This document shows, in pieces, positions 673 to 21,352 of a stretch of DNA of 64,000 bases. The translations under genes were made by a program, and so were the position numbers. The DNA comes from Polytrichum commune (Eukaryota > Streptophyta > Polytrichopsida > Polytrichales > Polytrichaceae): the NCBI GenBank assembly GCA_950295325.1, contig OX485804.1, positions 44,454,001 to 44,518,000 on the forward strand, written 5' to 3'. Under the pieces are notes generated by a model. That model ran no database searches and was not told the DNA's origin. It saw nothing but the letters and a program-made list of their open reading frames with translations. How positions within the stretch are numbered: position 1 is the stretch's first letter; the number at the start of each line of letters is the position of its first letter.

Positions 673-1469
673 ATCGAATATAAAAAACATCTTCTTCTTG
701 TATGACGTCAATGACAAATCTGTATCCAATTGAGATTCAAACGGGGCATTGGTTTGAGCCCAATTCGGGCTCCAAGATGCGCGAACCTCATCATCCACGA
801 ATTCAAAGTTTCCCTTATGATCGGTGGCCGATATATAAAACACACGGTCACCATCACGATAACCATTGAAAAAATCAGCCTCCAATTTAGTAATGTCACC
901 CTTCAAAACAGGACGCACAATCGGCATAGGAACCATGCGACATGAGGATACACGCAAGCGAGCATTAGGTCCAACACGGATTGAGGAAATTGTGGAAGTG
1001 GAATTGATCTTTCGTTTGTTCATAAGCTCCCACACTTTTTCTTGATAAATTTTATTGTCACCATCATTATCTTCATCCGAGTCAAAATCATCGAGGAATT
1101 CATTTATTTTTATTTTTATTTTTATTATGAAGATTTGACGATATATCCTGATGATGATGAACTTCTTGAGATGGACGATTTTGAGTTGAATGCATTGTGG
1201 AATCATCATCAGTAGAAATAGGAGTCGTTCTCTCCAAATCCATTGATTGATCCTAAAACAAATGAAATAAGTTTCATAAATATTTTAAAACCAGTAGCAA
1301 CACATTAGCAATAACATTACAAAAACAACAGCAACAGCAATAACAATAACAACAGAAAACCACGAACACAGGGAAGAATGACAAAAATTATTCTAAACAC
1401 TACCATTTGCACCTTTAAATATTCTACGATTAAGGTGGCCGGTCACCCCAAAACTTCAAGGGCAAACCC

Positions 1470-2510
1470 TGTGCGTTATCGCACAGGGTCTGTATGTCCA
1501 ACTACAGGTCTACCAAAGTTGGGTGCGAGGTTTGGGTCGAACGACCCAAACTGTCCACGCGGTTTCGATCGAGCGACCCAAACCGCCTATAGCCACTTTG
1601 GGTCGAACGACCCAGACTTTTTGTGCGTGGTTTGGGTCGCTCGATCCAAACTGTGAGCGTGGTTTGGGTCGTTCGATCCAAACCACGCTCACAGTTTGGA
1701 TCGAGCGACCCAAACCACGCACAAAAAGTCTGGGTCGTTCGACCCAAACCATGCTCACAGTTTGGGACGGTCGACCCAAACTAGGCAAACAGTTTGGGTC
1801 GTTCGACCCAAACCATGCTTACAGTTTGGGTCGGTCGACCCAAACCATGCTCACAGTTTGGGACGGTCGACCCAAACTAGGCAAATAGTTTGGATCGTTC
1901 GACCCAAACTAGGCAAACAGTTTGGATCGTTCGACCCAAACTAGGCAAACAGTTTGGATCGTTCGACCCAAACTAGGCAAACAGTTTGGGTCGTTCGACC
2001 CAGACCATGCTTACAGTTTGGGTCGTTCGACCCAGACCATGCTTACAGTTTGGGTCGGTCGACCCAAACCATGCTCACAGTTTGGGACGGTCGACCCAAA
2101 CTAGGCAAACAGTTTGGGTCGTTCGACCCAGACCATGCTTACAGTTTGGGTCGGTCGACCCAAACTGTCCGCAATTTACGCCTGATTATGCGCAATTACC
2201 CTGTCATCACGAAAGTGCAAACAAACCTTGTACTGCACCTGTAGATGAGAGAGCTTGCAGCGACAAGCTCAGGTCCGACAGATGAGAGAAAAAAGACTGA
2301 ATGCTTTGGGGGTGTGGCAATTTATACTACTCGTCCCTGCAGCCATATTTAGCGTGGCTCTTCATGGCCCCGCATAGCCGTTAGAAAGTTGCCAGCGTAG
2401 ACCTTGTGCGTTAACGCACAGGGTCTGCGCTGGCAACTTTGAGGCCACTGTGCGTTAGCACATAAGGCCTGTACATTAGTGTATAGACCCTGTGCGTTAA
2501 CGCAGTCTGG
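1470..2510. repeat. Isolated copies of palindrome B flanking array A
   Basis: Single copies of the palindrome made of CCCTGTGCGTT and its reverse complement occur outside the tandem block: near 1471-1492 (centre TTAT instead of TTAA), 2401-2422 and, degraded, around 2455 and 2487-2505. They sit on both sides of array A. They may be dispersed sites or the remains of a larger array. Confidence 0.7.
1530..2168. repeat. Tandem palindrome array A (32 bp unit)
   Basis: About 20 head-to-tail units of 32 bp. Each has a palindromic core with arm GTTTGGGTCG, a 2-nt centre (TT, AA, GT, AG or CT), then the reverse complement of the arm; the spacer resembles CTAGGCAAACA or CATGCTCACA. The left part (1597-1749) is inverted on itself and forms a large hairpin. 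The array lies in intron 1 of the minus-strand ParB-like gene. Two further copies of the core lie in the intron of the neighbouring transposase gene near 8497-8554. Open frames across the array are a by-product of the repeat. Confidence 0.92.
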
Positions 2511-2942
2511 AATTGGTAGATTTGCCAAAACTTGTAAAATCTGGAAAAAATGCTAATGGGGTCCAAAAAAAAAACAAAAATATGCTATATTATCTAAATA
2601 TCCGTAGCTACAAATTCTTCTTATATTTTATTTTGGTTTAAAATCATTTTCTTTTCTCATTCTTCTATCTATTTCCCTGTTTTGGGCCACCTCGTAGATT
2701 TTGGGTTTCGGGGCAAAAAAAAATTATGCTATTTTGTGTCATTTTCTAGCTCCTATAACGTATTGCATGAATACTTGAATAACATATTTCTCATTTCTTG
2801 CATTCTAACCCCGTTTTGAATAATTTTTTTGCTCCTACGCTCTGAACATCGATTTAAATTCATACAATAGATATTTGTTTTACTTTTAGGCTCTCCTAGT
2901 CGTTTTACTTCCCAACTTTTGGCCTTCCTAAGTTGCTCTTAC

Positions 2943-3229
2943 AAACCCTGTGCGTTAACGCACAAGGTTTTACCTCCCAACTTTGGCCTTCCTAAGTTGC
3001 GCTTACAAACCCTGTGCGTTAACGCACAGGGTTTCTCCTCCCTACTTTTGGCCTCCTAAGTTGCGCTTACAAACCCTGTGCGTTAACGCACAAGGTTTCT
3101 CCTCCCAACTTTTGGCCTTCCTAAGTTGCTATTACAAACCCTGTGCGTTAACGTACAGGGTTTTAGCTCCCAACTTTTGGCCTCCCTAAGTTGTTCTTAT
3201 AAACCTTGTGCGTTAACGTACAGGGTTTT
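2943..3229. repeat. Tandem palindrome array B, left part (64-65 bp unit)
   Basis: Five units start at 2943, 3007, 3071, 3136 and 3201. Each contains a 22 bp palindrome (CCCTGTGCGTT then its reverse complement, centred on GTTAAC) followed by a pyrimidine-rich spacer with CTCCCAACTT and CCTAAGTTG. The fifth unit is split by the LTR insertion at 3230. Its 29 bp here plus 35 bp at 5031-5065 rebuild a 64 bp unit, so both parts were one array. Confidence 0.9.
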
Positions 3230-5025
3230 TGTGAGGCCAAACCCCCCACCCTTAAGCGTCCGTAGTCCGAGTAGTGGGTTTGGGCTCACATTCCTCCGCG
3301 GTATTGGATTTGGACTTGGATGAGTCCATAGTGCAAGGTTCACCCTTCAAGTGGTCTTGGATTTAACTTTGGTCTTTGCTTCCTTTGTCTTGCCATCGCG
3401 AGAGTGCTCCACATTCTCCATTAAGTTGTGCACGTGGTTTATTTTTAAAGAGAGGATGCAAGTGTTAAAAAAAACACTATTCTCTATAGTCAATCTCAAA
3501 TACATTTACTTGTGAAAGCCACACATAACACTAACTAGCATAATGTAACTAACTACTTGTCTATGAGCTAATTAGGTAGGCTATCTACTAAGCTCCTTCA
3601 TGAACCCATCTCTTTACTTTCTAATTACATAAACCTAGCTCCTTCATAAACCCAGCTCCTTCATAAACCCAGCTTCTTAGCTTCTAACTAAACAAACCCA
3701 GCTCCTTAGCTTCTAACTAAACAAACCCAGCTCCTTCATAAACCCAGCTCCTTCATGAACCCAGCTCCTTAGCTTCTAACTAAACAAACCCAGGTCCTTC
3801 ATGAACCCACAACTTTGTAGTTGTAATCCCCAACTACCTCACTAATTATTCAAGCCCTTAACTAATCTTCCTACCTAATTTCCCTAATTCTACTAACAAC
3901 CCCTTTCTAATCACACAATTCTTCTCTAATCCTAAAATCCTAAAATCCTAGAGAGGAGAGGGGGAGAGAGAATTTCCTAACTTCACTAAGACTAACTAAT
4001 CCACACAAGTATATTTTTGCACTCATCACAACATCAAGTGCTCAACTCTTAAACATGGAACTTGCAACCACGTGTATTCAAAACATGAACTTAAAGTACC
4101 ACAAATTGGAATCATGAATTAACTTTAAAATCCTTCACGTCAACACTAATTCTACCAAGAGGTCAAGCCCTCTTCAAGGCTAACAAGCCTTGGCTCTCAA
4201 ACTAAAAACTAAGCACACACATGTGCTCCAATATGGCTTCCCACACCCACACTTATAACTCGTGGGGTGCCTTGGAGCACAAAGGAAAGAGAGGATGAGT
4301 GAGGGAAGAATGAGGGATTATATAGTAAGCTTGAGGGGGTGAGCACCCTCAAGGCTCACGATAAGCCCTTGAGATTTCCTCCTACGTAGTAGGCGCCAAT
4401 CCTATCTTCTAAGCCTTCCTCCCTCAAATGATCAACAAGGATCCTAATTCGAACATTTAACTAGCCTTGGCTTTCTACCTACCACACTTTACCAAACTTG
4501 GGATGCTTCAACCCAAACTTAGCCTCCTTCGCTTTCCGCCGCCATAACTTTCTCCCCTTACTTTCCCAAATCGTCGCTCACCACTTAATTCAAACCACGA
4601 TGCTTAACTCGTGATTTGATTGGTGCTTTGAGAATTTGCTTATCCTCCACCTTGCATTCTTCCTTAGGCCTTCCCCATTAAGTGGCCATGATGAGGTGGT
4701 CCACTTGTGCGCTCCATGTGATCCTCCATTCATCCCAATTCGAATGCACTTGCCTCTTGAGTCACTTTGGTTGTCTCCATCCATTTGTACTAGCCTACTC
4801 ACTAACTACTCAATCCAAGTTCTCCTTACCTATCCTCATTCACTCAAATCCTTCCGAAGGTAAAAACACAATAACAACTCACATCCTAGCCTCTTACAAC
4901 ATGGTACTTCTAAGACTAACATTTCACTCTTTTTATATTTTTGTGAAGTAACATGCTACTTCAAAGTGCATCAACTAACGTTTCAAGGGTCTAAGACTAA
5001 ATGTGGGCACCCTTTTGGGCTCACA
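3230..5025. mobile_element. Solo LTR (1796 bp) inserted in palindrome array B
   Basis: The element starts TGTGAGGCC and ends GGGCTCACA, so it has the TG...CA ends and short inverted termini (TGTGAG/CTCACA) of an LTR. It is flanked by a perfect 5 bp direct repeat, GTTTT (3225-3229 and 5026-5030). It splits one array B unit exactly. No gag or pol coding is visible and there is no second LTR, so a solo LTR left by recombination is the simplest reading; a non-autonomous element with unusual structure is possible. Internal sequence includes short tandem repeats of CCCAGCTCCTTCATAAA type at about 3640-3800. Confidence 0.78.
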
Positions 5026-5345
5026 GTTTTACCTCCCAACTTCTCGCCTCCTAAGTTGCTCTTATAAACCCTATGCGTTAACGTACAGGGTTTACCTCCC
5101 AACTTCTCGCCTCCTAAGTTGCTCTTATAAACCCTGTGCGTTAGCGTACAGGATTTTACCTACCAACTTCTCGCCTCCTAAGTTGCTCTTATAAACCCTG
5201 TGTGTTCTCCTCCTGACTCCTAGCCTTCCTAAATTTATGTTATATACCATGTGTTGTTGTGTATTAACGTATAGGGTTTCTCCTCTCCAATTTATAACTT
5301 CTATAAATTACTACTACATGACATGTGAAAGAACGTACAAGGTTC
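5026..5345. repeat. Tandem palindrome array B, right part
   Basis: Continuation of array B after the solo LTR. Palindromes start near 5066, 5129 and 5192 and degrade towards 5240-5345. The centres carry substitutions (CTATGCG, GTTAGCG), so this half is older or less homogenised than 2943-3229. It lies just downstream of the exon 1 donor of the minus-strand ParB-like gene. Confidence 0.8.
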
Positions 5346-5685
5346 TCCATCCTAACTTATAACTTATGCACTATCAAATTATGTGAAGGTTGAACTGACT
5401 TACCTTTTTGTTTGTCGTCTTCTTTGAACCCGTCTTCAATTCGGACTCTGATATACGATCGTCTACATCTTCTTTGCTCTTTGCACCTTCATCATCCTCC
5501 ATCGCATCAAAATCCAGTGTCTTCACAGTTTCTTCTACCGTACTCAACAAATTTATTTTCCCTTCCTTATTTGCATTCTTCTTTCCCACACTCAGTCTGA
5601 ACCTCTTTTTCTCGGAAGTGAAATACAAAGCTTTCCTAAGTCTTCTCTTCGGCCTCACGGGTGTTCTCTCTACATCGTCCACCAT

Positions 5686-6209
5686 CGTTGGTGTCTATGA
5701 TATGTTTTCTATCAGGTACTATCATTTATTCTTCCAATGTATCTATCTCACAAAATCCGGCGTATATTACAATCACATGTTGTAATTGGCATTTAATGAA
5801 CGAGATATTTCGACGCGTTTGTCATTATGTGTTTATTTTTGTTATATCCGCCAAAATTTTCTGACACCTACTATGTTCTATTTATAATGATCAATAATTT
5901 ATTTTTCCAACCAATTTTAATTCTTTCTACATCTACGTCAGTCCACACATATATATTTTTGTTTTCTACCAATACTTTTAGATTTTGACGCCATTTTGTG
6001 TATATATCTTGCTCGTAAATATTCTCTGACTATTATTGTGTTATGTCCACTTCTGTATTATTAGATGCTATGTATCACACGCTTTCATCTCCATCCATTA
6101 TTGTATCACACGTTTTCATTTCCATTCATTTCCTCACACAACTCTATACAAAAGCAACATTCACCCCATATTTTTGTGATGTGTTGTTCATATGTTCTTT
6201 TGATTTTCT
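5686..6209. promoter_or_regulatory. Divergent promoter region between ParB-like copy 1 and the transposase gene
   Basis: An AT-rich stretch of 524 bp separates two ATG codons facing away from each other: minus strand at 5685 and plus strand at 6210. No coding sequence is visible in it. Divergent placement suggests shared regulation of the two genes as parts of one element. TATA-like AT runs are frequent, and I cannot pick a specific promoter. Confidence 0.4.
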
Positions 6210-9200
6210 ATGGCTACCATTAGAGCTCATGGATCTTTTGTTCCCTTCATCTTGCCACTCCAAGATGATGGTCATGTGAGTGTTTCAGAGGATTTACTTA
6301 GTTTGAGATTCAACCTCCAGATAGGAACCATGTATTTAGAGCATGAGATGTACTCTGCAGATGGAGAGGTGTATGAAACGATTTTGGTTCCAAAAAATAG
6401 AACTGATGTTGGTTTTATGTGGATCTTAGGACCTGGTTCATTTAGGGTGATAGGACTTTCTGAGTCTCAGATGCAAGCTTCAACTGTCATTTTGACAAAC
6501 GAATCCGGTACATCCACAGTTCAAATTCCCTCTATCGCACCTGTTAAGGTGGAACCCCTTGATGATAGTGTGTTTGTGCTATCAGATTCAAAAGATGACA
6601 TTTGTGCATCTATTGATCTTTCAAACACATCGCCATTTCCATTTAGAAGTGTTCATTCTACTCCTTCCCAACTTCCTATACATGTAGCCAAATCCCCTTG
6701 CAGTCTTATGTACAAGAAGGTGGTTCCCCAAATCTGACCTTCTCAACGTCCTCCACTACACCATTCACCTTCATCTACAGGGTTGACTATGGTTGATGCC
6801 TTGAAGCTAACAAAGTTAAGAAAAAGATCAAAGTCCGATCTTGCATCCATTGATTTTGACAGTATAGATGTTCGTAAAGTCAAGTACTTACCATCTTCTT
6901 TTAATGGTGATGTTTTGTTTCTCTTGCCTCCTGTGGCATTCAAAGCTCCAAGTACGTATGGTCGCTCAATGGACGGCATGGACAAGATGTGCGACGGTCA
7001 CCCTTGGTGCACCACCAAAACCACGAATATCCAAAATGTCTTTGGACTATCTTTTCGGCGCTCTACTTGTGTTGGTCATCTCCAATGTCATAATGACTAC
7101 TGTGATTACATGAATCGCAATGGGGGCCTCCGGAACAACACTGAATGGGCCGGTTCAACTCCTATCCCATTTGCTGTGGGTGTTGTTCCCCCTACTAAGT
7201 CCACTGTCGAGTGTAAGATATGTCGTTCCACACTTGTGTGCATTGCTTTGTGTAATGCTCGAATCATATACATCCACTCCACATCCGTTGGAATGTCCAA
7301 GGCTTGCATTCATCTTGGTGTACATGATCACCCTGTGGCCAATGGCACATGCCGTGAATCATTGGACATGGCATATCAATGCGTTGCAAATGAAGTATTG
7401 AAAATACCCACAGCAAAAAATTCAGCCATAGTTATGGCGGCGAGCAAACAATTCTTGGCCGATTACCTTCTCAAATCTCCCGCAAATGTCGAAGGCCATC
7501 ACTTGGTTGGTTCATCCCTAGAGGTCGTCATGGACAAATTCAGCACTCTTGCGTCTCCAAATTGTCGTAACTTTGTATCTGGATCAAAGCGTTTTTTGCG
7601 TAGTGGAATGGGAACTATGGATAGTATTATGGCGCTCAAAGACCACTCTGCTTTCAAATTCGTCCATGGTAGTCGGTTCCCAGGGCAGTCAAAGGACAAA
7701 GTGTTTGTTTTCAAGATGTCTGTAGACCTTCCAGGTAGTGGTGTGGAGCTTGTGAAGAGGATGCAAGTCGGTGGGGATATGGAAAATTCATGGATTATGT
7801 TTGACCATGTCAAACGTTTGAAGGACTGGACGACCATGGCTTGCCATGTGTACGACAGTCGATACTGTAAAGTGTCGACTATTGCGTGTTGTGACATGCA
7901 ATCTGAAGATGGTGCAGCACAAATTATCTTTTGGGAAAATTTGAATGTTGTCATGGCAGAAAATGGTGTACCAAATGTAAACTTCAAAGCGTTTATGGCT
8001 GATAGTGCTCAAGCTAATTGGAATGCGGTGACGGCGATTTACGGGGATGGTGATCCAAGTCTACCCATGGTTGCACGTGAGCGTACATGTCTTTTCCATT
8101 GGTCCGCAAGCTTGGATAAGGTGACCCAAAGGTATATCAAACCATCCTTGCAATTTCAACACAAACAAATATGCAAGGATTACAAAGACGCGAAAACAAT
8201 GGACGACGCTGAGACCAAGTACCATGTGATTCGTTCTTGGTGGTTGTCATCTGGAGCTGCCTCCGAAGAAGGCATCCTTGGCCTTTCAGAGTGGTTGGGA
8301 TTTTGGCACTTTCGTTATAGACAATGGGGTGGCCATATGCTACTTGTAAGTACATATCAAACTTCATTATTCAATATAATATATCTTATGTTTTTCTTAT
8401 ATTTGTCTTTCTGTGTTGTTCATAGGATATGACAATAGAAGAGCGTGCGGGAATGCCAACATGCAACCTTGCAGAGACTGTACACAATAAACAACAAGCA
8501 GTTTGGGTCGTTCGACCCAAACGTGGCAGCCATTTTGGGTCAAACGACCCAAACCTAGATATATAATCTATCTTATGTTTGTCTTATCCTTGTATTTGTG
8601 TGTTGTTCATAGGATATGACAATAGAAGAGCGTGCAGAAATGCCAACATGCAACCTTGCAGAGACTGTACACAACAAATGGCTCCAACAGTCCGGCAACA
8701 AGATGATTTGTTTTTATGAAGCTACAGTGGACGACATGATCCGTGCCTTCATGCAAATTGCAAATTACCGGACATGGTTGAAAGGGAGGTCTGATGGTAA
8801 AGGTCCTGATTCCGCCTCCTTGAAACTCAAAGCAACTGCCAGGTGTGGAGATCCAAAAATGTTGGCCAATGTCATGAAGTCTTATCCAGGGGCAGAAGAC
8901 GTCAACACTAGAGATTGTGCATTGGAAGGGTCAGAACTCTTTGGTTCCACCAAACGCAAATTCAACCTACCACCGGGTGTTGATTGTGACTCTCATCGAC
9001 CCGACAAAGTGAACTATTCCATTCCTCGTCCCAACACTCGAGCAACTCGTCAACGCATAGAGGAATCGTTGAGTTCTACAATTCATGGTGTGGCTCATAC
9101 TACATCCGTGTTAGAGACTGATTGTCTTGCTTCTAAGTGGCACATTGCAAGATTGCCACCCAACTCAGCCAAACGTTGTTGGGCACTGCAGGCCATCACA

Positions 9201-9944
9201 GGGACTATGTGCAATGCCAAAGTCGGGACTGGGAAACATGGCACACCTGCTCCAACATACAAAGGGCTCAGGAAGGAATTTCGCTCTCCCAACAATGTGG
9301 AGTATGAATTTTGGTTTTGTCCTGACGACATCAAACGTTGTGTGAGTGGCAGTAAGAAGAAATATGTGTTGGATTGGCCTATAGTACCCAACACGTGGCC
9401 AGTGAAGATAGGTACCAATCTATCGAGAGAGGAGGTTTTGGCACTTGAAGATGTTGGATTTCAACTACAGTAGAGGGAGGCATTGTCTCCTCGTCGTAGG
9501 CTTTCAACAATTGCAACTCTTCCCATCCCTCGCTCGCATTTTTCTATGCCACCAAACCCAGACGCCCATCCTACATTCAGATTTGGGAAGACAGTGCGTC
9601 GTAATCCAACAGCACCTCTGGCGGATCACAAAAACAAATGGGAGAGCGCCGGACTCATGGAAGGTTACTATGTGATTGGGGTCACTGCCATTCCATATCC
9701 AGGCTTTGGAGTGATAATCAACATTGTCTCCAAGCAGGATATCACCTACCATGTCACAATTGGCGATATCCCGCATTGCACATGTTCAGATTTCACGAAA
9801 ATGTCCTCTCATGCATTGGGAAAAAAAGGAAAATGGGTGTATTGTAAACATCTTTATTATGTGTTTAGATTTTTGTGCAAGGTGGATTACGAGAGTGATA
9901 AGTTCATTCATGCACCTACATATACCTATAATGAGGTCATGTGA
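6210..9944 (+). pseudogene. GCM-like zinc domain + DDE + SWIM transposase gene (MULE-like), interrupted by in-frame stops
   Basis: Starts at ATG 6210. Exon 1 runs to 8345 (CTT|GTAAGT) and exon 2 runs from 8613 (CATAG|GATATG) to a stop at 9942-9944, all in one frame. In order: an N-terminal region (6210-6780) of unknown fold; a Cys/His cluster from HPWC (6999-7010) to HDHP (7324-7335), typical of WRKY/GCM-type zinc binding; a transposase core with FDH (Asp at 7803), ADSAQANW (Asp at 8001) and CLFHW; and a C-terminal SWIM zinc finger with CTC at 9777-9785 and CKH at 9843-9851. The frame is broken only by TGA at 6735 and TAG at 9471. A duplicated last exon near 10490 has CAC where this copy stops with TGA, so the true end lay a little further on. 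Expected role: cut-and-paste transposition in the nucleus. The family call is good; this copy is probably inactive. Confidence 0.78.
8380..8612 (+). repeat. Tandem duplication of the intron/exon junction carrying palindrome A
   Basis: The 3' splice region of the transposase intron occurs twice, 187 bp apart. TTGTTCATAG|GATATGACAA is at 8425 and again at 8612. The upstream copy continues as exon for about 60 bp and then runs into two copies of the palindrome A core (about 8497-8554), separated by GTGGCAGCCA; a repeat of the intron end follows. Use of the upstream acceptor would add palindrome-encoded codons and reach a TAA stop. The second acceptor restores the frame. Confidence 0.8.
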
Positions 9945-10640
9945 CTACTTGAACTTGCTGGTATTGTAGAATGTGAGTAGTATTGCAAGTGCTCTATTAA
10001 GCAACATATATTTGAATGTCAATAAATGACATGTTTTGGTTTGGATTATTATAATAAAAATTAGCAATGGATTGAAAGTATTTCAAATGATTCAGTAACT
10101 TCGTTTTTATTTAGACTGCGACCCAACCATGTGTAACTTGATTGATTCATACATATAAATAATAACACATTTCTAAAAATAAAAAATAATTAAGAAGATT
10201 CTACGCACATCCGCGTAGTAACGTCTTCTTGGTATCCGCCTATAGATTATTCCCGCTTTATCACTAGCTCAATTTGGGATAGCACCAGTCAATGTAACCA
10301 ACCGGATTCGAACCTGGGTTGATCCAGACCTAATACCAGTTTCTTACGCAACTCACATCCACAGGCGGATGTCTCAAAACCTAGTAGCTACCTACATATT
10401 CATTATTTCTAATATCTAATTTTCTTTCTTTTGTAGATTCTGGGCCTTTATTCAACCCGTGAACAGTTTGAGTGGCTCACAATTATGGCACCGAGATATA
10501 TGTATAATGAGGTTATGCACCTACTTGAATTTGCTCGTGTTGTAGAATGTGAGTAGTTGTACAAGTACTAGTTGTAGCTACATGTATAAGGATGTCAATA
10601 AATGACAAGTATTGGTTTGAATTATTATAATAAAAATCAG
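9890..10640 (+). repeat. Duplicated terminal exon and 3' flank of the transposase gene
   Basis: 9900-10090 and about 10480-10665 are diverged copies. Both read YNEVM, then a segment ending VVECE or IVECE and a stop, then GATGTCAATAAATGACA and TTATTATAATAAAAATYAGC. The second copy follows a good acceptor (TTTTGTAG at 10431-10437). Between them lie a SINE-like block and AT-rich sequence. The AATAAA-like strings after the stop could be poly-A signals. Confidence 0.7.
10195..10380 (-). mobile_element. tRNA-derived SINE-like sequence
   Basis: On the minus strand there is a consensus RNA polymerase III B box, GGTTCGAATCC (10304-10314), about 60 bp downstream of CCGCCTGTGGATGTGAG. The plus strand shows matching short termini (CCGCGTAG, CCGCCTATAG, GGCGGATG). 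No complete tRNA cloverleaf is present, so a tRNA gene is unlikely. No clear target-site duplication was found. Confidence 0.45.
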
Positions 10641-10867
10641 CAATGGATTGAAAGTGTTCTAAATGATCCATGGAGATAGGGCCCTTTCACTTGTGCTTCA
10701 TTTAAAATATTGGCAATTTACAATTGAAAATATGCAATTAATTTGTCAAAATTTTGGTTGTGTACCCTAAACCCGTGTGTCTTTACTAAATTTGGATTCA
10801 TTGCTCATATGTTACTGCTCATTGCTCATGTGTTACTGCTCACCGCTCACTGCTCATCGCTCATAAG

Positions 10868-12690
10868 ATAACGTCCCTCGAACCGAGAGGGTGGGGCAAT
10901 ATGGAATTTCAGGTGCCATGTTTGACTTTTTGATTTCTAGGCGAGTTATATTTGAGAATTTGTAAGGACTGGGGCACCCTCTCGGTTCCGAGAGGGTGGG
11001 GCAATATGGACTTTCAGGTGCCATGTTTGAGTTTTTCATTTCTAGGCTAGAGTTATATTTGAGAATTTGTAAGGACAGGGGCACCCTCTCGGTTCCGAGA
11101 GGGTGGGGCAATATGGATTTTCAGGTGCCATGTTTGAGTTTTTCATTTCTAGGCTAGAGTTATATTTGAGAATTTGTAAGGACTGGGGCACCCTCTCGGT
11201 TCCGAGAGGGTGGGGAAATATGGATTTTCAGGTGCCATGCTTGAGTTTTTGATTTCTAGGCTAGAGTTATATTTGAGAATTTGTAAGGACTGGGGGACCC
11301 TCTCGGTTCCGAGAGGGTGGGGAAATATGGAATTTCAGGTGCCATGTTTGTTTTTTTTATTTCTAGGCTAGAGTTATATTTGAGAATTTGTAAGGACAGG
11401 GGCACCCTCTCGGAACCGAGAGGGTGAGGCAATGTGGATTTCAAGTGCCATGTTTGAGTTTCTGATTTCTAGGAGAAAGTGATATTTCAGAATTTGTAAG
11501 GACTGGGGCACCCGAGAGGGTGGGGAAATATGGATTTTTAGGTGCCATGCGTGAGTTTTTTATTTCTAGGCTAGAGTTATATTTGAGAATTTGTAAGGAT
11601 TGGGGGACCCTCTCGGTTCCGAGAGGGTGGGGAAATGTGGATTTCAAGTGCCATGTTTGAGTTTCGGATTTCTAGGCTAGAGTTATATTTCAGAATTTGT
11701 GAGGACTGTGGCACCCTCTCGGAACCGAGAGGGTGGGGCAATATGGAATTGCAGGTGCCATGTTTGAGTTTTTGATTTCTAGGCGAGTTATATTTGAGAA
11801 TTTGTAAGGACTGGGGCACCCTCTCGGAACCGAGAGGGTGGGGAAATGTGGATTTCAAGTGCCATGTTTGAGTTTCGGATTTCTAGGCTAGAGTTATATT
11901 TCAGAATTTGTAAGGATTGTGGCACCCTCTCGGAACCGAGAGGGTGGGGCAATATGGAATTGCAGGTGCCATGTTTGAGTTTTTGATTTCTAGGCGAGTT
12001 ATATTTGAGAATTTGTAAGGACTGGGGCACCCTCTCGGTTCCGAGAGGGTGGGGAAATGTGGATTTCAAGTGCCATGTTTGAGTTTTTGATTTCTAGGCT
12101 AGAGTTATATTTGAGAATTTGTAAGGACTGTGGCACCCTCTCGGAACCGAGAGGGTGGGGCAATATGGAATTTCAGGTGCCATGTTTGAGTTTTTGATTT
12201 CTACGCTAGAGTTATATTTGAGAATTTGTAAGGACTGGGGGACCCTCTCGGTTCTGAGAGGGTGGGGAAATGTGGATTTCAAATGCCATGTTTGAGTTTC
12301 GGATTTCTAGGCTAGAGTTATATTTCAGAATTTGTAAGGACTGTGGCACCCTCTCGGAACCGAGAGGGTGGGGCAATATGGAATTTCAAGTGCCATGTTT
12401 GAGTTTCTGATTTCTAGGCTAGAGTTATATTTGAGAATTTGTAAGGACTGGGGCACCCTCTCGGTTCCGAGAGGGTGGGGCAATATGGACTTTCAGGTGC
12501 CATGTTTGATTTTCTGATATCTAAGAGAATGTGATATTCGAGAATTTGTATGGACTGGGGCACCCTGGGTGGGGCAATATGGACTTTCAGGTGCCATGTT
12601 TGATTTTCTGATATCTAGGAGAATGTGATATTCGAGAATTTGTAAGGACTGGGGCACCCTCTCGGTTCCGAGAGGGTGGGCAATGTCGGT
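10868..12690. repeat. Tandem palindrome array C1 (about 106 bp unit, about 18 units)
   Basis: Each unit holds a 24 bp palindrome (arm CACCCTCTCGG, 2-nt centre TT or AA, then the reverse complement of the arm) followed by a conserved spacer with GTGCCATGTTTGAG, GATTTCTAGG and GAGAATTTGTAAGGACTG. The period is 105-108 bp. Two units have lost most of the palindrome (near 11508 and 12563). The array ends about 70 bp before the acceptor of the first recognised exon of the plus-strand ParB-like gene, so it is probably intronic. Unit length is not a multiple of three; the long minus-strand open frames here are artefacts of the repeat. Confidence 0.93.
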
Positions 12691-12991
12691 ATTATGAGGG
12701 CGGGTTTGATGTTTTCAATTTCAAGTCTGGTTTCTTAAGGTGTATTTTGTGTATGTAGGCATCGCAGGCTTTGGCTCTTCCTGTATCACTTGTGCACTTA
12801 ATGGAAGATGTCGATGTTCCATTGTCGCCTCCTGTAGCTCTCATTGCGGCTCTTGATGACATCTCACATGGAGAGGTGTCTAATTCGTTGAGCTTTTGTT
12901 GGTATTTTTTTGTTGTATCAATGTTTAATTTAGATTCTTGTATGTTTGGTTTTTGTGTTATCTTCTTATGCTTTGCATTTTTTTTTTGTAG

Positions 12992-13569
12992 ATTGATGTT
13001 CCAATTGTATCCGACTGCCTTCGACCTCTGGCTGAGTCGAATCCGGATGAGACTGAGCTATTGATTCGGAGATCGCAGAAACAAGACTCGAACACCGTGA
13101 TTCAGCGGGTTCGATTCAAACCTCTCGGGAAGTCTTGTTTCTCTATTCCATTGTGTCGCTTGCGTTGTCTTCCTCTTGTTCGGCCCATCAACGACGTTGA
13201 TGTTGTTCGTTTGGAGAATGAGTTCGTGATGGGTTATCGTGATGGTGACCGAGCTATGTACGTCTCTCCATTCAACAACCTCGATGAGGTCCTTCATGTC
13301 TCCGATGACATCAAGGCCTCCTGGAGTCCATTATGGCATGAGGCCAATGCAGAGTTTGATGCCATTCTCCAAAGAGACTCCGACCTTGCTAACTTTGTTG
13401 ATAATATGTTCTACGTGTGGGAGGGGAACCATCGGTTGACAGCTTGGTGGAGGCACATCAACAATCATCACCCGATGGACAAAGATTGGCATATCTCTGC
13501 TGATTGTATTGTGGTGGATCCAAGAAATTGCACCGCCCTCTTTCTTAATGCTATGAATGACATCAACTG
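12992..13569 (+). CDS. Exon with the ParB/Srx-like domain, copy 2
   Basis: An intact 578 bp exon flanked by TTTTTGTAG and G|GTGAGT. It reads LVRPINDVDVVRLENEF, which matches the start of a ParB-type domain, then GYRDGDR, a SWSPLW block, GNHR at 13434-13445 and a C-terminal part ending MNDIN. Copy 1 on the minus strand has equivalents of every block (LEADFFNGYRDGDR, ASWSPNW, GNHRFFAW, MHDIN). No helix-turn-helix of the classical ParB DNA-binding region is evident, so it may be a nuclease- or sulfiredoxin-like relative. Confidence 0.6.
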
Positions 13570-14121
13570 GTGAGTTTGACATTTTATGTTGTTGTGCTTG
13601 TCTTTTGTTTTTTCGCATTTTTTCCACTAACATTTTCTTTGTTTAGGTCCATGGAGCATGACCATGTTAAGGACAACCTGCCCGCCAAGTTACTTCGCAT
13701 TTGGACGTTTGGAAAGATGAGGCTAGAGGAGTTTAAAGACCTCCTTTCCGTTGTTGACTACAAGATGTGTGAGTCCAAGATGGAGAAGAATCCTACTTGG
13801 TATCCCCTTACATTAGACGTCTTCGTGAAATTCTTATACAAGGTAAATTTTGTGTAAATTTTCCTTGACTTTGCTTCTCCCATGTTTATGTGCGTTCCTT
13901 ATCTTTCTTTTTGTTTGATTCAGAGGGAGATATCCAACGCGGCTGATACGGCAGCAAGGTTATACCGTGAGGCCACTCCCGAGGCTCTCAGATCAGCGCC
14001 AGAAATTTGGGATGCTATGACAAAAGCCCAGGATAGGTTGATCAAAAGCATTCGTTCTCGGAACTTTGAGAAGTTCATTTCCGTTGCCCACAAGGACAAC
14101 GGTGATGATTTCTTCAACGAG

Positions 14122-16510
14122 GTGCCTCTGCTATCTTTGTATTTTCATTTAGTTTTTCATTCTCTGTTGAATGTCAACATTACTTAGAAGAGATGTTAAT
14201 CCAGATTATGGCCTGTAGAGAAAATGGTACTACAAGAGAGCAACTGCGAAGGAAAAATCCAAGTACAAGAACAATTGGTGCATATAGGATAGAAGACTGC
14301 CGCAAGAATTGAGGAAGGGCCGAGAAGGAAGCAGTCTGCCAAAGAGGGCGAATGAAGCAGGGACTTCGGCCACGGGATAGACCCTCGGCCACGGGATTAG
14401 GTCCCAGCCACGGCTTTACGAGACATTACGCGCGGTGATAGGACCTATTACCCACGGGAATGGGATCCCAGCGGGTTAACAAAGGGGATTAAGGACTTAG
14501 TAATAGAGGAGCATTATATAAGCATGTTTAGATTATAAGAGGAGTATATAGGGATAGTAGCAAGCAATGAAGACCATATATGAGCAAGTATACTCATTAG
14601 TATAAGTATATAGGATTTTGTCAAAAACAACTTTGCTAATAATATCAAGCAATTATAAGGGAATAGAATCTCATATACATTCCATAAACATTCCGTTGGG
14701 AAGATATACAAAAATCAAGCATTAAAGGATTCTATCAATCAAGTATGTATGCATTGGTTAAATTCTTACAAATGCCATACGATGTAGCCACGACAAAGAT
14801 ATAGCGGAATCTTGAAGATATAGAGTACTTGACGGTTATAACCGTTTGTGGTTTTCAACCATCTACAAACGTTATAGATAGGAAGATAATTAGGGAATTA
14901 GAGTTACCAATTACTCTAAACATAGATTTTAAGATAGAGAGAAAAGACTATTTAAGGGAAGCAATTTAGGAGACCTATACCTCATTTTCTACACAACGAA
15001 GTTATCTTAAATTTGAGTGTCAAGAATCACTTGAAGCTTTTGTAACTCTCCTCTCGAGGAACTTTTGCAATACACTTATCTTTTCTACAATATGAGTGAT
15101 CTCTCTTACCTCTCCCTCTCAATTTGAACTACGAGTCGTCAATGGTACTTTGTAGCTTAAATGATTGAGCAACCGAGAGTAGAGTAGATTGAATAGACTC
15201 TTTTGAGAAAGAACTCAAAAGATAGTGTGAGGGTGAGAACAAAGCGCTCAAGACAATTTGGAGAATCAATGGAACTTTGAGAGAGATTGATATGAGAAAG
15301 CAATTGTCAATTTATACAACTTGAATGAAGGAAGCACGATTATCTCTCAAAGCGGAACTTATCATTGATCTCCTCAAAAAGGAATTATAAATATACATGT
15401 GATTGTATATTTGAAGAATTATATGCATGTTATGGATGATTAAAGTGAAACTTCTTAACGATTACAAACTCCTTCAAAAGAGGAGGAACTTATTATCATA
15501 AACTACATAATTGACTTACAAGTATTATGCATATTATAATATATAACATATGTTTGGATATCGAACTTGTTTTACGATTAACAATAATGATGAAGACATA
15601 AATTTACATCAAAGTTTGAATCTATATGAATGAAGTAATATTGATATGAAATAATCTACTTACTACAATTGTTATTGGAACTTCTTTCTTTAAGTTTCTT
15701 TGTGAGTTGTTGGATGTCATTATAAGTTGAAAGAATTCTCTCTCTTGAACAAACACACAAGAGAATAATGTAAGAATGATGTTCTAATCTTCTCGTCATC
15801 AAGAAACACTTTGTAGTAAAAGTGCTTCTTCTCTTAAGATACTTTGTGAGTTGTTGGATGTCATCAACAATCAAAGAGGAGTTCTTACTTTTGAATAAAC
15901 CTCAAGAGAGTTATAATTACTATCGTCATCAAAAAACACTTTGAAGTTAAACGTGACATTGCAAAACAATCAATGATGTGTTCATGAAATTACAACTACT
16001 ATATGTATACATGTCAAGTTACAATATTATAAGTAGTAACACTTGAGCTTAAAAAGGAAGACTCAAGAATATTAGATCTTCTTCATCATTATAAGTTTAC
16101 TATCATTTATGTGATTGATATTTATAAACTCCGAATCTTAAGGATTCATATAACTTATTGAAAACTATATTATTAACAAGGATATTGTCACACCTCTTGA
16201 AGCATTCTTAAATCTAATGGTTCTTATTATCAATGATGCCTTACATTGAAAGTAAGAATTAAGATAATGAGATTGTGTTCACTCCGATAATTATATTCAT
16301 ATCATAAGGAGAAGAGAGGGATTATTAATTCGAGACCGAACATATTAATGAGGCACGGTAGTTCTCACGCGAATATAAATTTACGTGATGTCTCACCGAG
16401 AGTCTTCTTGAGCTAATTTGCAAGGGAACGACCCACGGGGTGCATCATTTTCCTATAAATCCTCTCTTGCTTGATATTTCTTTCTTACTTATCACTCTTC
16501 TATGTGGCAG
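14122..16510 (+). other. 2.4 kb intron with an AT-rich, insertion-like interior
   Basis: The intron of ParB-like copy 2 between GAG|GTGCCT and GTGGCAG|ATT. About 14200-16440 looks foreign. It has a short GC-rich segment with three GGCCACGGGA-type repeats (14360-14420), long AT-rich sequence, and a roughly 145 bp segment repeated in tandem (15670-15830 and 15830-15965; shared strings CTTTGTGAGTTGTTGGATGTCAT and CGTCATCAA). It looks like a non-autonomous retroelement or solo LTR, but ends and target-site duplication could not be fixed. No coding sequence is seen. Confidence 0.45.
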
Positions 16511-16799
16511 ATTGACCGTCATTTCTCCACGCACCTTCCTCGTCACTGATATGACAATCGAAAAACTTCAAAAGGTGGCCACCGCACATGTGGATCCCCA
16601 CTTCAGGCAAAGTGGCTTCGTTGGTGGAACTCCCCTGCCGAGGTCAAAGATAAGAATAGATTTCCATCGGCTCTCCCTCTTAGGGAGAAAGTCCTCAAAA
16701 ACTGGCTCAACAAAGCTTCATTCTGGGCTCAGGTGCATCTACAATATTTTTCCCTCTGCTTATTCCTTTCTCTATTTCAGTTTCTTATTTCTAGGCTAG

Positions 16800-18832
16800 T
16801 TTCATCTTTGATAATTTGTAAGGACTGGGGCACCCTCTCGGTTCCGAGAGGGTGCAGAAATGTGGTTTTTCAAATGGCCATGTTTGAGTCTTTGATTTCT
16901 AGGCTAGTGTTGAAGGTGGGGGAATATGGATTTTCAAGGGCCATGTTTGAGTTTCTGATTTCTAGGCTAGTGTCATATTTGAGAATTTATAAGAACTGGG
17001 CACCTTCTCGGTTCCGAGAGGGTGCAGAAATGTGGATTTCAAGTGCCATGTTGGAGTTTCTGATTTCTAGGCTAGTGTCATGGGTGGGAAAATGTGGATT
17101 TCCAAGTGCCCTTTTTTAGTTCCTCATTTCTAGGCTAGTGTCATATTTGAGAATTTGTAAGGCTGGAGCACCCTCTCGGAACCGAGAGGGTGCAGAAATG
17201 TGGTTCTTCAGGTGCCATGTTTGAGTTCCTGATTTCTAGGCTAGAGTTATATTTCAGAATTTGTAAGGCTGGGGCACCCGAGAGGGTGGGGAAATATGGA
17301 TTTTCAAGTGCCATGTTTGAGTTTTTGATTTCTAGTAGAGTGCCATATTTGAGAATTTGTAAGGACTGGGGCACCCTCTCGGTTCGAAGAGGGTGCATAA
17401 ATGTGGGTTCTCAAGTGTCATGTTTGAGTTTCTGATTTCTAGGCTAGTGTCATATTTGAGAACTCATGGCACCTAGTACCTAATTAGAGTTTGAAAACAT
17501 GTCGAGGGGGTCCACCCCCGATGCCCCTAAGCATACGGCTAGGTGGGAACCAACTACTAGAATCAACCCTAGCGCCTAACCTAACTAAAATTTGCGAAGA
17601 GAGTTTGAGAAGAAAGTTTGCGAATAGGTCGTTCGGAGGGAGGAGCCAGGAGCCTCCACTATCGCCCGGCAGAGGCAAGGAGCCTCCACCATCTCTCATT
17701 TCTGGATTCTCAAGTGCCATGTTTGAGGTTGACATTTCTAGGCTACTGTCATGTTTGAGAATTTGTAATGACTAGGGCACCCTCTCGGTTCCGAGAGGGT
17801 GCAGAAATGTGGATTTTCAAGTGCCATGTTTGAGTTTTTGATTTCTAGGCTAGTGTTATATTTCAGAATTTGTAAGGCTCGGGCACCCTCTCGAAACGGA
17901 GAGGGTGCAGAAAGGTGGACTTTAAGGGCCATGTTTGAGTTTCTGATTTCTAGGGTAGAGTTATATTTCAGAATTTGTAAGGTTGGGGCACCCTCTCGGA
18001 ACGGAGAGGGTGCAGAAATGTGGATTTCAAGGGCCATGTTTGAGTTTATGATTTCTAGGGTAGAGTTATATTTCAGAATTTGTAAGGCTGGGGCACGGTG
18101 GGGCAATGTGGATTTCAAGTGCCATCTTTGAGTTTTTGATTTCTAGGAGAAAGTGATATTTCAGAATTTGTAAGGTTGGGGCACCCTCTCGGTTCCGAGA
18201 GGGTGGGGAAATATGGATTTTCAAGTGCCATGTTTGAGTTTTTTATTCTAGGAGAAAGTGATATTTGAGAATTTGTAAGGTTGGGGCACCCTCTCGGTTC
18301 CGAGAGGGTGGGGAAATATGGATTTTCAAGTGCCATGTTTGAGTTTCTGATTTCTAGGAGAAAGTCATATTTGAGAATTTGTAAGGACTGGGGCTCCCTC
18401 TCGGAACGGAGAGGGTGCACAAATGTGGATTTCAAGTGCCATGTTTGAATTTCTGATTTCTAGGCTAAAGTTATATTTCAGAATTTGTAAGGCTGGGGCA
18501 CCCTCTCGGCTCCGAGAGGGTGGGGCAATATGGACTTTCAGGTGCCATGTTTGAGTTTCTGATTTCTAGGGTAGAGTTATATTTCAGAATTTGTAAGGTT
18601 GGGGCACCCTCTCGGTTCCGAGAGGGTGGGGAAATATGGATTTCAAGTGCCATGTTTGAGTTTTTGATTTCTAGGAGAAAGTCATATTTGAGAATTTGTA
18701 AGGACTGGGGCACCCTCTCGGTTCCGAGAGGGAGCAAAAATGTGGGTTTTCGAGTGCCATGTTTGATTTTCTGATTTCTAGGCTAGTGTGATATTTGAGA
18801 ATTTGTAAGGACTGGGGCACCATCTCGGCCAT
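16800..18832. repeat. Tandem palindrome array C2, inside an intron of ParB-like copy 2
   Basis: About 15 units of the same repeat as at 10868-12690, lying between exons 5 and 6. The units are more diverged than in C1 (GTGCAGAAATGTGG is common here, GTGGGGCAATATGG there). Palindromes occur near 16830, 17000, 17171, 17373, 17780, 17885, 17991, 18183, 18290, 18395, 18500, 18607 and 18712. Units near 17277 and 18094 are collapsed. The array is broken by unrelated sequence at about 17465-17700. Confidence 0.92.
17465..17705. other. Unrelated insertion within array C2
   Basis: About 240 bp with no similarity to the array unit, more GC-rich, containing GGAGGAGCCAGGAGCCTCC and a nearby second GGAGCCTCCACCATC. 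It replaces part of one or two units. No inverted ends or target-site duplication could be read, so its nature is unknown. Confidence 0.5.
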
Positions 18833-20055
18833 GTTTGAGTTTCAAATGTCAAGTCTAGTGATAGTTTGAGATTCCTAAGTTATCTATTTGTTCATTTCTC
18901 TACTTTACATTTCTAACTATTTTTCTTTCTTTTCATAGTTGGAGAAGGGCGTTGAAGCTAAGATTGCTTCATTTGAAAATGAGTGTTCCGTTGAAATCGA
19001 TTGGGGTTCCACGGAAGATATTTTCCAACCGGCCAATTATGTTGAGCATTGGAGGCTGATTCTGTGGGACAAGGCATTTTTGGTTTATTTTGACGACAAG
19101 AGAGATCTTAAATTTGTCAAAGGCCTTGATCTCATGGAATTTGAGGAAGGCCCCATATCAATCAAACGCGTCACTTACCGGTAATATTTTGAGTTTTTAT
19201 TTAGTACATATTGTTTTCGTTTTATTACCTTTCCGCCACCGTTTTTGTTCATGATGTTCTTCATTTTCCAAGTTCATTCACCGTGAGCTTGTTGCGAAGA
19301 ATGCTCTGCCTTCTTCGTGCTTGCCAACTTTCCTTGTAGATTGGGTCGATGTCAACTCCAATCTTTGTGTGTATACAGCCATGCAAGTTGCCAAATTTCC
19401 GGAGTCTCATTTGCAGGCTGGGGGATGGTACTTGGATTGTTCTGGAGGATTTGTGCCTGCAGAAGAGAAGCCTCTTTTTTCCAGCATTGTGAGTACTGCT
19501 CCCGATGAAAACATTGTCCCCTTTGAGGAACCCGACATCCTTGAGTTTCCTCCTCTTAAATCCAAGGCACCAAATGGAAAGGGCAGAGCAAAAAATACCG
19601 GCACTCAAGCAACTTCCCACCTTCCCACTCGGTCTGCTTCAAAGATCCCCCTTCAACCACCCACCCTCCTACAGAGTCCATCTAGCACTCCCTTCATTGC
19701 TCCATCAGCTGCCCCCTCTATTACTCCCTCAGCATTTTGTCCACAAATTATTGCTACTCCTTCTCACAGTGACACTTCTCTTCTATCATTGCCTCGCAAG
19801 AGGAAGGCCGCCCTTTTGGATACGAGTGCCACCTCTTCAGAGTCGCCTAACACGCTTGCCCTCATCGAAAATGTGGACATGGTCCAACTCATGCTCGATT
19901 CTGAGCTTGCAGGAGGTCCCCTCCCGGCATATACGCGCATCCAGGAGTTCATTGCCAAAGTTTGTATATTTTCTTTCTTCATTTTTCAAACTCCTTTCCT
20001 TTTGGTTTGTTTATTTTTTCCTTCCTCTTGTTTTCTCATGTAGTTTTAATTGCAG

Positions 20056-21032
20056 GTTGGGGCAGGTCGTTCCCGTGTGAACACCTCGACTACAACTCAC
20101 AAGGGCCTCGATTTGCTCTTCGCAGACATTCCTGAGAATTTGCCGGTGCCCAACATCTCCACCGATGTTCCTGCTTGGAACAAGCTACATGAATCATATT
20201 ATGAGTGTTTTTTGCATTTGCGAAATCTAACCTCTATGATCATGGTGTCCTTGTCCTAGCCCATTGTGCGAGTGCCAGTGTTTCTAGGATTGTTTTTTAT
20301 TGGGCACACACGTACGACTTCTACGTCGCCGAAGATTGGTTCGGTATGAATGATTTGGACCTCCAATCTCCTGTGGTCCCCTTTGGAGTTGTAAGCAACT
20401 CCCCATCTCCTACTCCGATTTTATTTTGTTTTTTATTTCACTTTTTCCGAGTCTTATGAAATCGTTTTGTTTTTTTCAGACTCGGAAATTCAACATCAAG
20501 ATTCTTGTTCGTATTAACTCTGTTCTCAAATTGTGTGAGGAGGCCATGCAAGAGTATGGTTACAACCTCCAGCGAGATGGATGGTTGAATGCTTTCACCG
20601 ATAAGAAGAGTCAGGCGATGCGTAGTGATGGGATACCCTGGAGAGGTGCTCGCGAAAAGCATCATATTTTTTTCTCTATTTTTTTGCTACTCTTACCGAC
20701 AATAATGATGTTATTATGGACTGGCAATGTGGTGTAGGTACGCATTCTCTTTCAGCATCATCCTTACTTTGATTTTTCGGTTATTTTTTTTTCACTAGTT
20801 TCCATACTAACATTTTACCTCTCTTTGCTTTAGGTGGTTCGATTACAGCATGCCGCTCCCTTGAGCGGCATATTGTGGCCCTTGAGAGTGACCCCATCAT
20901 TTTCAATGCACTCCTACTCCCCATGCGCGATCCCTAGCCTGCGCGTATATCTCGCTCAGTTGCCGCACCGTTTACATCTATCTTTGATCCTCCTCAGAAG
21001 ATGACCAAACGGGCATTCGGATTCCTTTGTGC
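20056..21032 (+). CDS. Exons with the N4/N6 methyltransferase-like region of copy 2
   Basis: Exons 20056-20390, 20480-20737 and 20834-21032. In order they give: DLLFADIPENLP (Asp at 20125-20127) where beta-class enzymes have a DPPY-like motif IV; a hydrophobic strand VLVLAHC; a block ending PWRGAREKHHIFF, like the R-x-x-HE region before motif I; then CGVGGS across the exon 9/10 junction and ERHIVALESD, like motifs I to II. The order IV before I is that of beta-class N4/N6 methyltransferases. The catalytic motif is degenerate (DIPE). Two T-run indels and TAG at 20935-20937 interrupt the frame. Confidence 0.5.
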
Positions 21033-21352
21033 GTAAGTTTGCTTTATATATTTTGCCATGTTTGCCTTGATTTCGGGTTCTCATTTTCCAGTGTCATCAT
21101 GTTTCTAATCCTTTTGCTTGGGTGTTTAGAGAGCCAGCGGAGGACGCAGTCATTCGTCGAGACATGTTCTCAAGTTCTCCGAAGCCATTTGAGCTTCCCC
21201 CGTATGCTAGTGCAATGGCGGATTGCTTTGGGAAGGCGGAGTCCCCACCTCCTCCTCGCGTTCGTAATTTCTCGCGTGAAACACGAAATCTTTTCTTGTT
21301 AGAAGCAAATGAGGGTGAGGAGAGTGATAGGGAATGTTCTCCAAGCCCTTAG

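Follow-up and report, generated by a model that had tools for sequence, protein, structure and literature searches.

Clade-Associated Palindrome Arrays in Transposons of Polytrichum commune: A Candidate Self-Recognition System

Why should short palindromes of different sequence be arrayed at regular spacing in the introns of one gene family? A 64,000-nt stretch of the Polytrichum commune genome (the window; C2:44454001–44518000, contig OX485804.1 of assembly GCA_950295325.1) poses this question with three such palindromes, A, B, and C, placed in and before two copies of a gene that we call the GNHR gene after a four-residue motif in one of its exons. A first-pass annotation had named the gene ParB-like and proposed that the palindromes are binding or reaction sites that co-diverged with their proteins. 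We followed the arrays through the genome (408 Mb in 64 contigs, ~406 Mb of it in seven) and through further copies of the gene. The reading we favor, at a probability of roughly 0.55, is that the palindromes may be binding sites of a protein encoded by the transposon that carries them, forming a VANC-like self-recognition and anti-silencing system.

Arrays, nested elements, and linkage to genes

Pattern searches and a de novo search (arms of at least 9, at most 1 mismatch, loop of at most 4) recovered all three arrays where they had been annotated. The de novo search found 18 A and 6 B palindromes in the 3.7 kb before the GNHR exon of copy 1 and 15 C palindromes before that of copy 2, while shuffled sequence (one mononucleotide shuffle per locus) held 0–2 palindromes of any kind. 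Genome-wide, exact-armed A (gap 0–4) occurs at 9233 sites and exact B at 490, with 0 for either reversed pattern; D, the palindrome of a related element described below, occurs at 1903 sites, with 0 for its control. A and B lie inside intron 1 of copy 1, and C lies both upstream of copy 2 and in one of its inner introns (Table 1). The arrays stand where the annotation put them, with the correction that copy 1, A, and B are part of a transposon of their own, which lies within the C array.

This transposon, P1, has inverted terminal repeats that match at 29/31 positions between the left flank (locus L043) and the right junction in the window, and it is bounded by a 10-bp target duplication, GAACCGAGAG. 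On C5, another copy with the same ends carries the target duplication ACATTGTAAC and is 94.6–97.5% identical in the long aligned stretches. The duplication measures 10 bp in both P1 copies examined (2/2), within the 9–11 bp of Mutator-like elements. The P1 insertion point is itself one C palindrome, and array C goes on to the left of the window (L043 1–2451); because P1 sits inside a C palindrome with C on both sides, array C belongs to a second element, together with copy 2. The insertion site of the C5 copy, TTACAcatTGTAA, is also a small palindrome. Array B is split by a dispersed 1.4-kb repeat (about window 3591–5025) that is 92.5% identical to L045 418–1873, next to the P1 copy on C5.

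Linkage of A, B, and D to genes was checked for the first listed sites on one chromosome, C1. The first 50 of the 490 B sites form 11 clusters up to 21.2 Mb, two of them single sites. Ten of the 11 have a correctly oriented copy-1-type exon 0.5–5.4 kb away, on whose 5' side they lie, and the eleventh lies in a decayed P1 remnant without such an exon; every copy-1-type exon listed in that range (10/10) has B. The first 50 of the 1903 D sites form 4 clusters up to 13.98 Mb (two groups 4 kb apart were merged), three adjoining a D-type exon and the fourth with methylase-like exons at a distance of about 1 kb, and 3/3 D-type exons listed in the range have D. The first 100 of the 9233 A sites form 7 clusters up to 2.16 Mb: two by copy-1-type exons, three with a second gene that we call family 2 (two read, one taken from the search list), one in the P1 remnant of the eleventh B cluster, and one inside a P1 transposase gene. 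Four clusters with no gene listed nearby were considered as candidate counter-examples to linkage and rejected on these grounds: the A cluster at C1:438k is the one in the transposase gene, A at 462.9k and B at 461.7k both fall in a P1 remnant, and the D cluster at 13.84M adjoins the methylase-like exons. None of the clusters checked (11 B, 4 D, and 7 A) stands at a random position; each belongs to an element of these families or to a remnant of one.

Palindrome families across gene clades

Protein searches with the GNHR gene returned 1,163–1,313 loose first-look candidates per query, the best 150 of which were scored. Forty loci were picked from the search lists before their upstream DNA was viewed and, with the two window copies, make up a sample of 42. 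A strict array was defined as at least three like palindromes in the 3.3–3.7 kb upstream of the GNHR exon. Repeated palindrome families were present upstream of 23/42 loci under this definition and of 31/42 in a relaxed scan, against 0/11 and 0/12 background chunks, all taken from one stretch (window 22–64 kb). The check that the annotation proposed, whether each subfamily of the gene has a palindrome of its own, comes out in favor in this sample: gene clades tend to differ in their palindromes.

The half-sites left of the central two bases read TTTGGGTCG in A, CCTGTGCGT in B, CCCTCTCGG in C, AGGCCTCGG in D, GCATCTCGG in E, GGGTTTCGG in F, GGTGCCG(T/G) in G/K, AATTCTGCA in H, ATCCCACGG in I, GTGTCTCGG in J, GAGTCTCGG in L, and GGGGTTCGG in M. 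CG at positions −3,−2 is present in 11 of the 12 subfamily half-sites (A not included), and the outer positions vary. The annotation had called its three palindromes unrelated; their sequences do differ, but they are not wholly unrelated, since a central CG is common to nearly all families and CGG-NN-CCG to most. Copy numbers are uneven: B, C, D, E, F, J, and A each reach at least three strict copies in a locus, H occurs three times in one locus, M twelve times (relaxed scan), and I once per locus, and L is known from visual inspection of a repeat consensus. By-eye reading of repeat consensus sequences likewise placed palindromes within longer repeat units at Q05, Q07, Q12, and Q17. Most gene clades tend to own a palindrome, apparently about a dozen in total, some weakly supported. 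At one locus (P5b, L019; 2280–2500 in gene orientation), very long hairpins with arms over 30 bp are centered on the F palindrome.

Labels B, D, F, G, I, and J each mark one clade in a tree of the 42 GNHR exons, whereas C and H need 2 changes because array-less rows fall inside them. All labels together take 12 changes (minimum 10; shuffled mean 29, with 0/200 shuffles as low), a figure that is no probability of co-evolution, near-copies making clustering easy. The labels were assigned after the palindromes had been seen and before the relaxed scan, and the tree keeps these original labels; the later scan found arrays in some loci labeled "none" (Q15, and P3a with a C-like array) and showed that P5c, Q13, and Q14, labeled G for a different palindrome, also have a K-like array.

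Conservation is higher inside the palindromes, at 1.6–1.8 bits, than in the flanks (0.3–1.3 bits; sites chosen by pattern). Pooled CpG mismatches within palindromes number 61/1724 versus 323/7376 at other positions, values in which conservation is inflated because site selection was by pattern, allowing up to 4–6 mismatches. CpG is depleted in the spacers of A, B, C, D, and J (observed/expected ratio 0.20–0.49), compared with 0.55 in window 22–64 kb, 0.55 in F, and 0.84 in E. The kept palindromic CpGs fit protection or selection alike and do not separate the two.

Palindrome A extends beyond the GNHR gene. The family-2 gene in two A clusters (L041 and L042) has DGQH in place of GNHR (in L042, DGQY). 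Behind this motif is a region resembling a degenerate methylase by eye, with no Pfam support. A profile of 31 GNHR exons aligned to the family-2 DGQH exon over the motif alone (probability 1.3%), which does not establish common ancestry. Family 2 numbers 908–957 first-look candidates; with L041 as query, all 150 scored copies are at least 90% identical, 19 of them at 100% over 206 aa (C1:622178 and 18 other places), and such near-identity points to recent movement. L041 contains four A arrays, of periods 78, 158 (beginning with a period of 35), 57, and 36, and L042 has A arrays with periods 64, 32, and 48, in both cases between or before open frames. Over the coding part, L041 and L042 are 75% alike; their large upstream arrays show no alignment. 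One palindrome with different spacers is the best sign that selection acts on the palindrome. P1e has B and lacks A in the stretch read, which suggests that B is the cognate of copy 1 and A that of family 2; A would then be a family-2 palindrome also carried by P1.

A comparison of copy 2 with a D-type element (C4:4771600) bears on which half of the gene goes with the palindrome. The D element is laid out alike, with its transposase-like and GNHR genes on opposite strands and GT–AG exons after the GNHR exon, and holds 28 D palindromes in a long non-coding stretch, probably an intron, before the GNHR exon. The C and D elements are 86% identical, introns included, from window 19291 to 21562 (~2.3 kb), with 86–96% identity in the last four exons versus 65–74% in five earlier ones; the change-over falls inside exon 19273–19960. 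In this one mosaic pair, the palindrome differs along with the 5' (GNHR) half and not with the methylase half.

The encoded proteins and their elements

Across 31 aligned GNHR exons, G105 and H107 are invariant and N106 and R108 nearly so. A G-x-x-R motif is taken as diagnostic of the ParB/sulfiredoxin superfamily. DUF1015 matched 3/31 of these exons (best E 0.044). The annotated ParB-like identity was not confirmed by profile or structure; the name rests on the GNHR motif and its methylase-like company.

The C-terminal half gave weak but consistent matches and appears methylase-like, of N6/N4 type. A single-sequence PDB search with the D C-terminal part returned DNA methylases in 5/6 rows (DpnA E 0.017, CcrM 0.55, N4-cytosine methylase 0.78–0.88), and a two-row profile reached DpnA (5hek/5hfj) at E 0.0032. 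Another stretch, in copy 1, matched Pfam N6_N4_Mtase below the cut-off (E 0.0065), and the D part had no Pfam match. The outline of AdoMet motif I is recognizable in D, C, B, G, H, and I; in F the motif was not recovered. The catalytic (D/N/S)PP(Y/F/W) motif is absent in all seven subfamilies read (7/7, one copy each): D, C, and G have DIPE, F and H DLPE, I DVPD, and B QFPD. Judged by this motif, the protein is probably not an active methylase, and because replacement of DPPY recurs, simple decay seems unlikely.

Five pieces of the P1 transposase-like gene align with the D element's divergently transcribed gene at 39–50% identity. The P1 gene's Pfam matches to SWIM (E 0.15) and DUF6208 (E 0.0018) are both under the cut-off, with no MULE match; the D transposase likewise gave FERM_M under the cut-off (E 0.0081). 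The start of one P1 transposase exon is duplicated (window 8426–8672), each copy behind an acceptor-like AG and with two A palindromes between, as if an array had seeded a new intron. Between this gene and the element end, window 10488–10670 is an ~80% copy of a stretch at the transposase 3' end.

The GNHR exons of copies 1 and 2 are 35% identical. The reading frame changes within the methylase-like part of copy 1. In copy 2, exon 16511–16733 contains frame changes and, near 16548, an in-frame stop, and exon 20056–20391 contains a frame shift near 20220; the element that holds copy 2 probably has its right end near window 22578. The D copy at C4:4771600 has two in-frame stops. The D-type GNHR exon is 100% identical in 8/150 scored copies (C4:4771600 and 7 other places). 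No target duplication of the D element was established at the flanks examined. A 149-bp inverted repeat around the D copy (927–1073 and 16554–16702 of the joined stretch) was dropped as its terminal inverted repeat; a flank resembling a primer-binding site and the lack of a target duplication make pieces of a long terminal repeat (LTR) or TRIM element more likely. One of the two repeat copies lies directly at the D element's likely right end. Elsewhere in the window, at 29737–31002, is a DDE_1 transposase (Pfam E 2.8e-34), which we take to be pogo-like.

Table 1. Features of the P1 and copy-2 elements. Positions are window coordinates unless a contig or locus is named; a dot stands where no strand applies.
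Feature	Position	Strand	Basis or remark
P1 element, 13,429 bp	C2:44451451 (2,550 bp left of window) to window 10879	.	copy-1 gene on −, transposase-like gene on +, arrays A and B
10-bp target duplication	right copy 10880–10889; left copy L043 2441–2450	.	P1 junctions
Copy 1, GNHR exon (FDGNHRFFAW)	525–1251, lower bound approximate	−	open frames and protein searches
Copy 1, intron 1, with arrays A and B	about 1252–5403	−	GTAAGT / TTTTAG by eye; exon 2 conserved in P1a–P1e
Copy 1, probable first exon	5404–5694	−	open frame, GT donor; start codon about 5685
Single B sites	near 1466–1489 and 2399–2426	.	pattern search
Array A, GTTTGGGTCG-NN-CGACCCAAAC	1529–2168	.	period 32; pattern and de novo search
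Array B part 1, CCTGTGCGTTAACGCACAGG	2902–3229	.	period 64
Array B part 2	5026–5206	.	period 63–64; inserted repeat (about 3591–5025) separates it from part 1
P1 transposase-like gene	6204–9944	+	weak SWIM zinc finger near end; stops near 6736 and 9472; probable intron
One exact and one imperfect A palindrome	8499–8550	.	flanked by the duplicated start of an exon (8426, 8613); probable transposase intron
Array C right part, CACCCTCTCGG-NN-CCGAGAGGGTG	10880–12684	.	period ~106 with shorter units; left part beyond P1 insertion, left of window
Copy 2, GNHR exon (WEGNHRLTAW)	12992–13570	+	open frames and protein search
Copy 2, middle exons	13648–13842, 13924–14121, 16511–16733, 18940–19181, 19273–19960	+	bounds by homology to D element
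Second C array, inner intron of copy 2	16775–18828	.	period ~106 with shorter units
Copy 2, methylase-like C-terminal exons (LLFADIPENLP; GGSITACRSLERHIVALESDP)	20056–21340	+	frames; bounds by homology to D
Likely right end common to copy-2-type and D-type elements, GCTCACATACTTGAGTTTCCC	22558–22578	.	comparison with D

Interpretation and known systems

On the favored reading, the elements are DNA transposons whose second gene would encode a sequence-specific protein, composed of an N-terminal GNHR part, ParB/sulfiredoxin-like by motif, and a C-terminal domain that resembles a bacterial-type N6/N4 DNA methylase whose active-site motif is altered. In each subfamily this protein would bind, probably as a symmetric dimer, the palindrome lying before its own GNHR exon and sometimes in other introns, and would thereby mark all copies of its own subfamily. 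The likely benefit would be to shield the element locally from silencing and DNA methylation by the host, as VANC proteins do for Arabidopsis VANDAL elements. We infer all four of its components—binding, the binding domain, dimerization, and anti-silencing—from sequence.

Several results weigh against this reading. Copies 1 and 2 in the window look dead, as both appear broken. Under the relaxed scan, 11/42 loci had no array in the stretch read, and two of the 31 with arrays, Q05 and Q12, were counted for palindromes that belong to a 360-bp repeat unit. CpG mismatches in J number 9/80 versus 17/320 elsewhere and in E, on few sites, 1/16 versus 3/88. Searches of the 31 GNHR exons against Pfam, NCBIfam, and PDB gave nothing above chance and no ParB match, and AlphaFold models of the GNHR part are unusable (pLDDT 41 and 36), a helix after the motif being present only there. 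Agreement between clade and palindrome is by itself no proof of co-evolution, for copies within a clade are recently related, and a linked transposase would give the same clade pattern. Protein and palindrome distances across 12 subfamilies (half-sites entered by hand from the palindrome scans) are uncorrelated in a Mantel test (r 0.03, p 0.42), and gradual co-divergence is rejected on that ground. What survives of the annotated co-divergence is the tendency of clades to own a palindrome; the missing correlation suggests that specificity switches in discrete steps and does not drift.

The clade pattern would arise equally if the palindromes were binding sites of the transposase, in enhancer-like internal arrays whose specificity follows that protein. 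P1 and D do each include a transposase-like gene, whose transcription runs away from the array gene, and one pair of A palindromes sits in a probable transposase intron. The arrays, however, are not at the element ends but kilobases inward, next to or within the other gene, and two A-rich family-2 stretches contain no P1 transposase exon in the 10 kb read of each; on this evidence, with transposases compared for P1 and D, we judge the explanation unlikely. Neutral tandem repeats, generated in introns by slippage or gene conversion and carried along by transposition, would account for the satellite-like variation in copy number and period and for loci such as P3d, where tandem repeats have degenerate palindromes or none. 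They would not readily account for one palindrome recurring in separate arrays with different spacers and periods, nor for palindromes in most sampled subfamilies, with a central CG in 11/12 half-sites and none in the background, and we consider neutrality quite improbable.

Two further explanations carry little weight with us. The palindromes might act as nucleic-acid structures, hairpins or cruciforms, for example in small RNAs or splicing: perfect arms of 9–14 bp lie in probably transcribed introns, and P5b has much longer hairpins. Yet within a family the sequence is kept and not merely its complementarity, the dyad fits a protein dimer, and loops of 0–2 nt are too tight for simple hairpins, which leaves this very improbable. 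Least credible is that the palindromes are preferred insertion targets, or safe harbors, of these transposons. P1 within a C palindrome, with its 10-bp duplication, and the palindromic C5 site TTACAcatTGTAA are what this idea would predict; they are two sites in all, C palindromes fill ~1/4 of their array so that a single hit is not unlikely, and an insertion preference leaves family-specific palindromes unexplained.

A more far-reaching version of the binding-site reading is rather unlikely, though more probable than any of these rivals: transposons would have captured a bacterial-type ParB–methylase fusion, disabled the enzyme, kept the reader under selection, and built about a dozen distinct protein–palindrome pairs. 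ParB-like loading and spreading would then shield kilobases, and a second array would exploit the protein of a neighbor family, as A might in P1.

If self-recognition is the right reading, these elements offer a ready set of candidate protein–DNA pairs for the study of specificity switching, with over a thousand loose gene candidates and about a dozen palindromes, and the recurrent altered methylase motif DxPE poses a further question on function. The open-licence literature, as represented by listings and the openings of abstracts, contained no description of this palindrome-array system. To our knowledge, transposon-encoded, sequence-specific anti-silencing with its own target arrays is known only from VANDAL/VANC, and a literature listing on this point yielded no further case.

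Among known systems, Mutator-like transposons have a terminal inverted repeat, a 9–11-bp target duplication, and a SWIM finger; P1 is alike in its inverted repeat, 10-bp duplication, and weak SWIM signal and unlike in having no MULE Pfam match. ParB–parS combines palindromic sites with a GxxR-type motif, and parS is one conserved sequence. Palindromes and motif are alike here, whereas our palindromes differ by family and no evidence of a helix–turn–helix (HTH) or CTPase accompanies them. Bce_0392 is described as a bacterial ParB–methylase fusion with nicking activity (PMC5512222), which makes a nuclease role possible for the GNHR protein. Both join a ParB-like part, identified here by motif, to a methylase-like part; ours differs in having DxPE in most subfamilies rather than DPPY and in being an intron-rich transposon gene.

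The closest likeness in layout is to VANDAL/VANC of Arabidopsis (PMC5735166, PMC10398659). There, VANC binds short motifs in tandem repeats within introns and upstream regions of its own VANDAL family and causes loss of methylation, and its targets change between related families (PMC5735166). By a domain test the GNHR protein is not a VANC: DUF1985 and DUF287 had no Pfam match in the exons scanned of copy 1, copy 2, and D (all but the first exons and the copy-1 middle exons). The VANC motif is 9 bp, versus a palindrome of ~20–28 bp here, and our candidate protein is a GNHR part with a methylase-like part, with about a dozen palindromes in one genome. Both systems place family-specific motifs as tandem repeats in introns and upstream regions and keep a separate transposase gene, the target role being the presumed one in our case. 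If the likeness extends to function, self-recognition through target arrays would have evolved more than once, with the same layout and different protein parts.

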